64,000 nucleotides of DNA. It comes from Citrobacter sp. 18056 (GTDB lineage Bacteria > Pseudomonadota > Gammaproteobacteria > Enterobacterales > Enterobacteriaceae). The stretch's first letter is position 1, and every line of letters begins with the position of its first letter. The position numbers and the translations under genes are program-made. The notes below the pieces were generated by a model, which had not been told where the DNA came from, did not search any database, and worked only from the letters and a program-made list of their open reading frames with translations. The stretch is from the NCBI GenBank assembly GCA_902706235.1, contig CACSJR010000016.1, forward strand, positions 1 through 64,000, written 5' to 3'. This document shows positions 25,143 to 32,145 of this stretch, one piece after another.

Positions 25143-26699
25143 ATGACAAGCCTTCAACAGCGAGCAGAACTACACCGTCAAATCTGGGCTATTGCCAACA
25201 ATGTCCGTGGTTCGGTCGATGGCTGGGATTTCAAACAATACGTCCTTGGCGCACTCTTTTACCGCTTTATCAGCGAAAATTTTTCCAGCTACATCGAAGC
25301 CGGTGATGACAGCGTCCACTATGCTGTACTGGATGACAGCATCATTACCGATGACATCAAAGACGATGCCATCAAAACCAAAGGCTATTTTATTTACCCA
25401 AGCCAACTCTTCAGTAACGTAGCGGCTAAAGCCAATACCAACGACAGGCTGAACGCTGATTTAAACAGCATCTTTGTCGCCATTGAAAGCTCAGCCTATG
25501 GTTATCCGTCTGAAGCTGACATCAAAGGCTTGTTTGCCGATTTTGATACCACCAGTAACCGTCTGGGTAACACTGTTAAAGATAAAAACACCCGCCTTGC
25601 CGCTGTGCTAAAAGGCGTTGAAGGCTTAAAACTGGGGGACTTTGATGCGCACCAGATTGACCTGTTCGGGGATGCCTACGAGTTCCTGATTTCTAACTAC
25701 GCGGCAAATGCTGGTAAGTCAGGTGGCGAGTTCTTCACACCACAGCACGTATCTAAACTGATTGCCCAGCTGGCAATGCACGGTCAGACCCACGTTAATA
25801 AAATTTATGACCCGGCTGCTGGCTCTGGCTCACTGCTGCTCCAGGCGAAGAAGCATTTCGATAATCACATCATCGAAGAAGGCTTTTTCGGGCAGGAGAT
25901 TAATCATACGACCTTTAACCTGGCCCGTATGAACATGTTCCTGCACAACATTAACTACGACAAATTTAATATCAAACTGGGGAACACGCTGACAGAACCG
26001 CACTTCGGCGATGAGAAACCTTTTGACGCGATTGTCTCTAACCCGCCTTACTCGGTGAAATGGATTGGCAGTGATGACCCGACGCTGATTAACGATGAGC
26101 GTTTTGCTTCGGCAGGCGTATTGGCTCCGAAATCCAAAGCCGACTTTGCCTTTGTGCTTCACGCGTTGAACTATCTCTCTGCGAAAGGTCGCGCGGCGAT
26201 TGTCTGCTTCCCGGGTATTTTCTACCGTGGCGGTGCGGAGCAAAAAATCCGTCAGTATCTGGTTGATAACAATTACGTTGAGGCGGTGATTTCACTCGCG
26301 CCGAACCTGTTCTTTGGCACTACCATTGCGGTAAATATTCTGGTGTTGTCAAAACATAAGACCGAAGCCAGCGTGCAATTTATTGATGCCAGCGGTCTGT
26401 TTAAGAAAGAAACCAATAACAACATCCTCACTGATGCGCATATCAAACAGATTATGCAGGCCTTTGACACCAAGGCAGATACCGACCATCTGGCGAAGTC
26501 TGTACCGTTTGAGGTTGTTGCCGCTAATGACTATAACCTGTCGGTCAGCAGCTATGTGGCAGCCAAAGATACCCGCGAAATTGTTGATATCACGGCGCTG
26601 AATGCCGAACTGAAAACCACCGTCAGCAAAATCGAACAGTTGCGTAAAAACATCGATGCGATTGTGGCCGAAATTGAAGGTAGCGAGGCACAGGCATGA
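25143..26699 (+). CDS. hsdM: Type IC restriction-modification methyltransferase subunit (PrrA/HsdM)
   Basis: 518-aa N6-adenine methyltransferase of a type I system. The N-terminal HsdM helical domain (residues 1-150) is followed by the target-strand motif [10 protein letters not shown] near 195, the SAM-binding motif [10 protein letters not shown] from Asp223 and the catalytic NPPY at 300-303. With HsdS it methylates host DNA and, with HsdR, forms the restriction complex. AGGA lies 7 bp before the ATG. The stop overlaps the hsdS start (ATGA). Sequence and gene order resemble EcoR124I/EcoprrI of class IC. Confidence 0.95.
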
Positions 26700-27841
26700 G
26701 CGAGCTGAGTTATCTGGAAAAACTGCTGGATGGGGTTGAGGTTGAGTGGTTGTCATTAGGTGATGTCACAAAATATGAACAACCAACAAGGTATCTAGTA
26801 AAGGCTAAGGATTATCACGGTACGTTTAGCACACCTGTTCTTACTGCAGGGAAAACTTTCATTCTTGGATATACCGATGAAACACATGGTATCTATGAAG
26901 CATCGAAAACCCCTGTAATAATTTTTGATGATTTCACTACAGCCAATAAATGGGTTGATTTTGACTTCAAAGCAAAGTCATCGGCTATGAAAATGATTAC
27001 TACAAGTGATGATATTAAATTTTCACTAAAGTATGTTTACTATTGGCTAAACACATTGCCAAGCGAGCTTGTAGAAGGTGACCACAAGCGTCAATGGATT
27101 AGCAACTACACTCAGAAAAAAGTCCCCATCCCCTGCCCAGACAGACCAGAAAAGTCCCTTGCTATCCAGTCTGAAATCGTCCGGATTCTGGATAAATTTA
27201 TCGACCTTACCGCTGAGCTTACCGCTGAGCTTACCGCTCGTAAAAAACAGTACAACTACTATCGTGACCAGTTGCTGAGTTTTGAGGAGGGTGAGGTTGA
27301 GTGGAAGACGCTGGGGGAAGTGGCGAAGTTTCGACGAGGTACGGCAATTACACAGAAGCAAACAACGCCAGGTGATGTACCTGTAGTTGCCAATGGGCCA
27401 ATGCCAACTTACTTTCACAGCGAGAGCAATAGGCAAGATGAAACTATCGTCATCGCTAGATCGGGTGCCTATGCGGGATATGTAAGTTTTTGGAATCAGC
27501 CAATATTTTTAACTGATGCCTTCAGCGTTCACCCCAACCTAAAAATTTTAAAACCAAAGTTTATTTACCACGTTCTACAAAACAAACAAGAACATATTCA
27601 CGCGATGAAGAAAGGTGCCGGTGTTCCTCATGTACGTGTCAAAGAATTTGAGTCATATGATGTACCTATTCCCCCTCTTGCCGAACAAGTCCGCATCGTC
27701 ACTATTCTCGACAAATTCGACACACTGACTAACTCCATTAGCGAAGGTCTTCCCCGCGAAATCGAACTCCGCCAAAAACAGTACGAATATTATCGGGACA
27801 TGCTATTTAGCATCCCGAAGCCGGAAGTGGCAGAGGCATGA
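26696..27841 (+). CDS. hsdS: Type IC specificity subunit (PrrB/HsdS)
   Basis: 381-aa DNA-recognition subunit with two target-recognition domains, about 15-150 and 200-345, each followed by a conserved helical spacer ([13 protein letters not shown]...; [18 protein letters not shown]...). The first domain ([32 protein letters not shown]) strongly resembles the EcoR124I domain for the GAA half site as I remember it; the second ([14 protein letters not shown]) is different, so the full target is not deducible. The central spacer carries two TAEL repeats. ATGA overlap with hsdM ensures coupled translation. Confidence 0.94.
27209..27238 (+). repeat. TAEL-coding 12-bp tandem repeat in hsdS
   Basis: ACCGCTGAGCTT occurs twice in tandem (27209-27232) and continues into ACCGCT. 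It encodes [10 protein letters not shown] at residue 172 on. In EcoR124 enzymes, two or three such repeats set a 6- or 7-bp spacer in the recognition site (established). By that rule this allele should have the shorter spacer. Confidence 0.85.
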
Positions 27842-32000: not shown

Positions 32001-32145
32001 CGCCACCGAGAATGGCACCGAGTTAAATGCGACGCTACCGAAACTCAGTCCGCTGAACCCGCAATACAAAACGAAAAAGCAGACGGTATTCCAGAAAATT
32101 GTCGCCTTCATTGAGAAGTTTAAAGGGGTTGGAGGTCAGTTATGA
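29026..32145 (+). CDS. hsdR: Type IC restriction subunit (PrrD/HsdR)
   Basis: 1039 aa from ATG 29026 ([20 protein letters not shown]), with GGAG 7 bp upstream; the frame opens earlier at 28999 inside prrC. The N-terminal endonuclease has Asp152, Glu166 and Lys168 ([19 protein letters not shown]). The SF2 translocase has Walker A TGSGKT with Lys314, DECH and GFTGTP, and motif [15 protein letters not shown]. The C-terminal HsdR assembly domain is complete. The sequence is close to EcoR124I HsdR. It cuts unmodified DNA after translocation and also contributes to keeping PrrC latent. Confidence 0.95.

Follow-up and report, generated by a model that had tools for sequence, protein, structure and literature searches.

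An intact EcoprrI-type hsdM-hsdS-prrC-hsdR locus in Citrobacter, with signs that prrC was acquired together with the front of hsdR

A known anticodon nuclease guarded by a restriction enzyme is PrrC of the Escherichia coli prr locus. There, DNA restriction is the task of the type IC restriction-modification (R-M) complex EcoprrI, which also holds PrrC in a latent state; when T4 Stp blocks this complex, PrrC cleaves tRNA-Lys on the upstream side of the wobble base, a reaction that involves GTP hydrolysis and dTTP (PMC3014915, PMC3874165). The same guard idea is also described elsewhere (PMC12707154, PMC9122126). EcoPrrC has 396 residues, carries Asp222 in its Walker B motif and contacts the wobble base with Asp287 (PMC3014915); Arg320-Glu324-His356 form the nuclease triad (PMC2610378) of a domain placed in the HEPN superfamily (PMC3710099). 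Activity was seen in those PrrC orthologues that had been examined, except where the linked R-M system was cryptic (PMC3874168). The subject of the present text is a locus of the same kind in Citrobacter sp. 18056, found in a stretch of 64,000 nucleotides (contig CACSJR010000016.1, positions 1 to 64,000; hereafter the window). It is very probably an intact two-tier locus of the EcoprrI type, in which a type IC enzyme would hold PrrC latent, tRNA-Lys would be cut on inhibition of that enzyme, and prrC would have been acquired as a cassette.

The operon occupies positions 25143-32145 of the plus strand, on which all features of the locus lie, and consists of hsdM-hsdS-prrC-hsdR with four open, full-length frames; an earlier note made from the letters of this DNA had claimed such a complete locus, rightly. 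The methyltransferase subunit HsdM (25143-26699, 518 aa) matches the Pfam families N6_Mtase (E=4.7e-119) and HsdM_N and the EcoR124 M chain 7bst_D (1065 bits). The specificity subunit HsdS (26696-27841, 381 aa) has two target-recognition domains (TRDs), seen as two stretches of Pfam Methylase_S and as matches to the EcoR124 S chain 7bst_A over residues 1-218 and 275-378. It is followed by prrC (27843-29033), predicted to encode a latent anticodon nuclease of 396 aa (PADLOC PrrC, E=6.1e-149), and by hsdR (29026-32145) for the restriction and translocase subunit of 1039 aa (EcoR124I HsdR 2w00, 1980 bits; Pfam HSDR_N, SWI2_SNF2 and EcoR124_C). The PrrC, HsdR and HsdM matches are far beyond chance, and the catalytic parts are at full length.

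PrrC of the window has Lys46, Asp222, Asp287, Arg320, Glu324 and His356 at these very residue numbers, so that the length and the positions given in the earlier note were borne out. Residues of an ABC-type NTPase are all present, namely the Walker A motif FNGTGKT (residues 41-47, positions 27963-27983) with Lys46, Walker B Asp222, and His251, which is assigned here as the linchpin His. The nuclease triad, numbered as in PMC2610378, lies at 28800-28814 (Arg320 to Glu324) and 28908-28910 (His356), and Asp287, the residue for the wobble-base contact in EcoPrrC, at 28701-28703. Relatives come from a collection in which each species is represented by one genome; 463 stretches in it encode a relative, and 80 of these were kept. 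Lys46, Asp222, His251, Glu324 and His356 are found in all 79 informative sequences, Arg320 in 78 (one Cys) and Asp287 in 75 (four Gly); L001 and L005, being the window itself or nearly identical to it, were left out of this count, and L071, a stub of 6 aa, was uninformative. With regard to the 15-residue PrrC box, the observation is an invariant block within residues 85-96 (alignment A2). The nearest E. coli proteins are 91 % identical to window PrrC; of their four loci, three are annotated as 'anticodon nuclease' and one as 'hypothetical protein'. Among solved structures the best match reached only E=0.09.

The start of hsdR is placed at ATG 29026 instead of the GTG 28999 of a program-made open reading frame (ORF) list, because its relatives begin at the equivalent ATG. 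This start overlaps the end of prrC by 8 nt, an overlap that is identical in 52 of 92 prrC loci (window counted). Positions 29010-29033, read directly, contain a Shine-Dalgarno-like GGAG within prrC followed by the hsdR ATG, and such a core lies within the prrC end in 48 of the 51 other loci with the 8-nt overlap. Through this overlap, translational coupling probably ties the synthesis of the nuclease to that of its keeper.

Comparison of the window with eight Enterobacterales loci (L082-L085, L002, L003, L004 and L006; YN00 with NG86 as fall-back; L082 and L083 have identical prrC and hsdR values) gave dN/dS ratios of 0.21-0.31 for prrC, 0.05-0.07 for hsdM and 0.07-0.10 for hsdR. Purifying selection acts on all three genes, and together with the open frames this rules out a broken or chance prrC. 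The synonymous distances are of a different kind: dS is 0.16-0.24 for prrC, 0.57-0.77 for hsdM and 0.68-0.94 for hsdR. At a dN (0.041-0.057) similar to that of hsdM (0.033-0.048), prrC has a dS 2.6 to 4.7 times lower. Plain constraint as the reason for the low divergence of prrC is ruled out by this low dS at hsdM-like dN, and also by a tract of high identity that enters hsdR and breaks sharply in pairs of loci with and without prrC.

This tract can be followed along the operon, where the identity profile is highest across prrC and the beginning of hsdR, beyond which it drops. Loci that lack prrC serve as the control. One of them, L106 (G001:C2:594000-612000, positions 3707-9687 of that stretch), is an additional type IC locus in the sibling genome that also contains L005. 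Its HsdM is 97 % and its HsdR 92 % identical to the window proteins, and both loci share a flanking DUF2913 remnant and the protein encoded at 32324-33103 (89 %). Between L106 and the window, HsdR identity is 97 % for residues 151-1039 but 62 % for residues 21-150; for the E. coli locus L082, which has prrC, the values are 89 % and 93 %, respectively. A single change point was fitted within the first 1,500 nt of hsdR in three pairs with and without prrC. It lies at hsdR nt 456 (interval 450-493) for the window and L106, at nt 480 (462-485) for E. coli L082 and L087, and at nt 393 (375-398) for Klebsiella L147 and L148. Identity is 0.63-0.66 to the left and 0.90-0.94 to the right of these points, with log-likelihood gains of 68-98. 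Among 5,426 E. coli genomes, the 450-nt hsdR front of the prrC type hits six, and these are the very genomes that match the window-type prrC. In plasmids it occurs in seven records, all seven with prrC, and two further plasmid prrC records (Azotobacter, and Paracoccus with a partial match) gave no match to the front at this sensitivity.

The change point against L106, the identity profiles and the co-occurrence in E. coli suggest that prrC and the first ~130-160 codons of hsdR form one exchangeable recombination cassette, proposed for the window at 27843-29481 (prrC plus hsdR nt 1-456). In 12 loci scored as lacking prrC the spacer between hsdS and hsdR measures 116-129 bp in 10 and 1,058 bp in one, and could not be measured in the last; in our reading a simple type IC operon would have had such a spacer of ~120 bp and an ordinary hsdR front, both of which prrC and its hsdR front replaced. 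The window's own genome contains no other close HsdM or HsdR. Four Klebsiella IncFIB-type plasmids (L146-L149) present alternative states of one hsd locus, with a second prrC type, with the window-type prrC, without prrC, and with an incomplete prrC followed by other genes. That the locus is, by this comparison, recombinant was missing from the earlier note. The literature searched, outside which the primary EcoprrI/PrrC papers lie, has no mention of the linkage between prrC and the hsdR front in the portions covered, and novelty is left unclaimed. The pattern matters more than the single locus and is the part deserving specialist attention: it indicates how type IC systems may gain a suicide nuclease, namely by recombination between alleles of one operon, as seen in the window's genus, in E. 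coli and on Klebsiella plasmids. Moreover, nearly matched pairs with and without prrC are now available for experiments.

Why prrC and the hsdR front travel together can be read in two ways, and physical linkage is the simplest. In a functional reading the first ~150 residues of HsdR would be a docking or latch surface matched to this PrrC type, so that both must move together; we regard this as unlikely, although it has some points in its favour. Besides the company of front and prrC in the E. coli genomes and plasmid records, window HsdR is over residues 21-150 92-93 % identical to seven Enterobacterales loci with prrC versus 60-64 % to seven without, while residues 151-1039 do not sort by the presence of prrC. 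Furthermore, across 45 loci whose prrC and hsdR overlap, the PrrC distance correlates with the distance in HsdR 1-150 when the remainder of HsdR is controlled for (partial r 0.413, p<=0.0005), which is not the case for HsdR 151-300 (partial r 0.072, p=0.20). Once seven close enterobacterial loci are removed, the remaining 38 give 0.265 (p=0.015) for the first segment and 0.019 (p=0.41) for the second. Left out of these distance tests were HsdR proteins below 1000 aa, PrrC proteins outside 360-445 aa and the loci L085, L107, L108 and L109. However, the signal for HsdR 1-150 is absent (-0.008, p=0.52) in the 22 loci with at least 200 bases between prrC and hsdR. In addition, the Klebsiella plasmid locus L146 carries its second PrrC type (46.7 % identical to window PrrC; PADLOC PrrC 429 bits) beside an ordinary hsdR front, which is 63 % identical to the window over HsdR 21-150 and matches that of L148, without prrC, at 0.84 over the first 75 nt and at 0.95-1.00 over the next nine steps of 75 nt. 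Nearest-neighbour counts on HsdR 21-150 over a wider set are mixed and speak partly against a clean split of the fronts: for 49 overlapping prrC loci the nearest neighbour is an overlapping prrC locus in 32 cases, a non-overlapping one in 11 and a locus without prrC in six, and 13 of 23 loci without prrC have a neighbour of their own kind. Loci with short flanks entered only these counts and the group means. The ordinary front of L146 and the loci with wide gaps weaken the notion that every PrrC docks on the HsdR front, and together with the mixed counts they lead us to prefer linkage over docking. Crossovers also need homology, which resumes right at the conserved nuclease motif, and hitchhiking alone could set the breakpoints. 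It is put forward with considerable reserve that PrrC and the HsdR front of ~150 residues might be one functional exchangeable module, the front being where the restriction enzyme holds PrrC, and that a single recombination event bringing in this module might make a two-tier suicide defence out of a type IC enzyme that had none. The covered portions of the literature name no contact site of PrrC on HsdR, and the cassette nominates the HsdR N-terminus as the first place to look.

Returning to the preferred reading, an EcoprrI-type locus that gained prrC by linked recombination, the gene content, intactness, residues, selection, overlap and breakpoints reported above are direct observations, to which masking, a trigger such as phage Stp, and tRNA cleavage would be added by analogy with EcoprrI. 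HsdM, HsdS and HsdR would form a type IC R-M enzyme that cuts unmodified incoming DNA and keeps PrrC inactive; inhibition of this enzyme by a phage would release PrrC; and freed PrrC would cut tRNA-Lys(UUU) next to the wobble base, so that translation stops. The overlap of hsdR with prrC probably provides for the joint synthesis of both partners, and prrC itself would have come in by recombination as a cassette with about the first 150 hsdR codons. The window's own genome contains five matches to a tRNA-Lys-like pattern, all with the loop CTTTTAA (UUU anticodon); the reversed control gave 0. The working two-tier system postulated in the earlier note is consistent with this anatomy, that is, with intact R-M genes, NTPase and nuclease residues, purifying selection and tRNA-Lys(UUU)-like sites, whereas the activity of PrrC and of the R-M enzyme stays a prediction from sequence.

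Several observations weigh against this reading. The dN/dS of prrC is several-fold above that of hsdM and hsdR, which means that the constraint on prrC is weaker than on its neighbours. A promoter scan gave seven promoter-like sites against 9.7 expected, none of which stands out (a terminator scan alongside it yielded nothing of use), and no match to PrrC was found in phage records at E<=1e-5.

Quite improbably, the intact locus could be silent here, or fail to work as a two-tier system, for instance through lack of expression or because PrrC has ceased to respond to R-M inhibition. The weaker constraint on prrC would fit this, as would the recent arrival of the locus in one or both of two sibling species, after which it may not be adapted to the present host; on the other side, all frames are open and the key residues kept, dN/dS of prrC stays below 0.35 in the comparisons made, and an intact, nearly identical copy exists in a sibling genome. 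A substrate other than tRNA-Lys is very improbable: PrrC proteins differ in their recognition segment and may therefore differ in substrate (PMC3014915), and window PrrC has His285 instead of the Tyr of four E. coli relatives, but this is the sole difference from them within residues 284-294, Asp287 is kept, and the far more distant PrrC170 (35 % to EcoPrrC) still targets tRNA-Lys (PMC11555353).

As to the recent history of the region, positions 21061-64000 of the window are 99.97 % identical to G007, a genome of the same genus classed as another species. The near-identity extends to about contig position 76000 (G000:C16), beyond which the 2-kb steps that matched show ~92-96 %, and on the other side window positions 134-10981 are 95.7 % identical to G007; the left end of the tract coincides with a contig end in G007. 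The contrast between the tract and its ~92-96 % flanks makes it probable that ~55 kb or more, including hsd-prrC and neighbouring Type VI secretion genes, were exchanged recently within the genus. The sheath genes of this secretion system (VipA, VipB; 34899-37002) begin shortly downstream of the defence locus. The locus L005 (CACSKA010000001.1) is one of the 80 relatives and 99.97 % identical to window 21843-35030; its record is titled Chryseobacterium sp. 18061 yet grouped in the window's genus, and the title appears to be wrong. Just past hsdR, the protein of positions 32324-33103 matches the PADLOC candidate defence family PDC-S63 (E=7.9e-48) and was found elsewhere only in L106 among the loci compared. 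A Mrr_cat-type protein (20820-21689, E=2.7e-6) and a GTPase (MMR_HSR1; 22910-23962) lie in the same low-GC stretch. Within window 1-16000, 57 % matches E. coli at ~77.5 % identity, which marks the host as a relative of that species. An 81-nt sequence containing a tRNA-Asp gene is present twice without any difference, at 176-256 and, 9,432 nt further on, at 9608-9688. An Rfam search of positions 15000-36000 returned 0 matches.

The distribution of related loci qualifies the statement of the earlier note that PrrC loci are uncommon. For the present prrC type it is right in E. coli, where 1,394 of 5,426 genomes match some part of the operon and only the six mentioned match the window-type prrC; these are not six independent events, because three are chromosomal loci named with the same features. 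In general it does not hold, given the 463 stretches encoding a relative and the presence of prrC in 10 of the 19 type IC-like loci that a comparison across 246 family genomes included. These 19 were the best from 28 other genomes with an HsdR match; prrC was not seen in the other nine as judged on the available flanks, and the assignment of L115, whose flank ends before hsdS, is uncertain. Among the 80 kept loci hsdM is a neighbour in 75, hsdS in 78, hsdR in 78 and at least one of them in all 80, and where an hsd gene is missing a contig end lies less than 1.3 kb from prrC. More than 200 nt separate prrC and hsdR in 26 loci (e.g. L008 7300-8301, L016 7457-8518, L009 5964-7040), and 23 of these gaps hold an ORF of at least 80 aa. 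Judged by eye, some of these ORFs resemble Fic, RhuM or DUF1016 proteins. The occurrence of RhuM- or Doc-like genes at PrrC loci has been described before (PMC3710099) and is not new. At the E. coli prrC locus L085 a gene annotated as 3'-phosphatase (10328-10834) lies 265 nt past hsdR, for which a link to tRNA repair is only a guess. In G007 another operon, L105 (G007:C7:173000-191000, positions 8122-15248), has the order hsdR-hsdS-prrC-hsdM and a PrrC ~34-37 % identical to that of the window (PADLOC PrrC 468 bits), with related proteins on plasmids; this order is not new either, as it resembles the published gene list of PrrC170 (PMC11555353). The further statement that PrrC is little studied outside E. 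coli was right in part, but activity is reported for the Haemophilus influenzae and Streptococcus mutans proteins (PMC2610378, PMC3014915) and for Klebsiella PrrC170, which is active against T1 and T7 and targets tRNA-Lys (PMC11555353).

The DNA target of the window enzyme can be predicted in part. EcoR124I recognises GAA(N6)RTCG, the number of TAEL repeats in HsdS setting the gap; its deletion form reads GAA(N7)TTC and EcoprrI reads CCA(N7)RTGC (PMC3874165, PMC12707154). The first 150 codons of window hsdS (26696-27145), covering the N-terminal TRD and its leader, encode a segment with 127 of 150 residues (85 %) identical to the EcoR124I-type S chain 7bst_A and would therefore read a GAA half-site. 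Two TAEL repeats (residues 172-179, positions 27209-27232), the same number as in EcoR124I, predict a gap of 6 bp by the rule from PMC3874165. By analogy the target would be GAA(N6) plus a second half-site.

Among known systems, RloC shares the ABC motifs and the Arg-Glu-His triad (PMC2610378) but is larger, has a zinc hook, is rarely linked to R-M genes and excises the wobble nucleotide (PMC2610378, PMC3014915, PMC3874168); no CXXC of the RloC zinc-hook type occurs in the 396 aa of window PrrC. PrrC170 of Klebsiella quasipneumoniae likewise lies within a type I operon and is shown to act on T1 and T7, yet is listed as HsdR, HsdS, PrrC, HsdM, in contrast to the M-S-C-R order of the window, and is 35 % identical to EcoPrrC (PMC11555353; compared by description only). 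EcoR124I, which has no PrrC, is close in HsdR, HsdM, the HsdS N-terminus and the number of TAEL repeats; the window differs from it by a prrC between hsdS and hsdR of the EcoR124I-type operon, by the prrC-type HsdR front and by another C-terminal TRD. EcoprrI/PrrC of E. coli prr has, by its published features, the same order hsdM-hsdS-prrC-hsdR, a PrrC of 396 aa with Asp222, Asp287, Arg320, Glu324 and His356, and type IC subunits. It differs in its host, in its target CCA(N7)RTGC and in three TAEL repeats versus the two and the predicted GAA(N6) of the window. The Citrobacter locus is thus a member of the EcoprrI kind with a predicted DNA target of its own, and it enlarges the set of intact EcoprrI-type systems by one.

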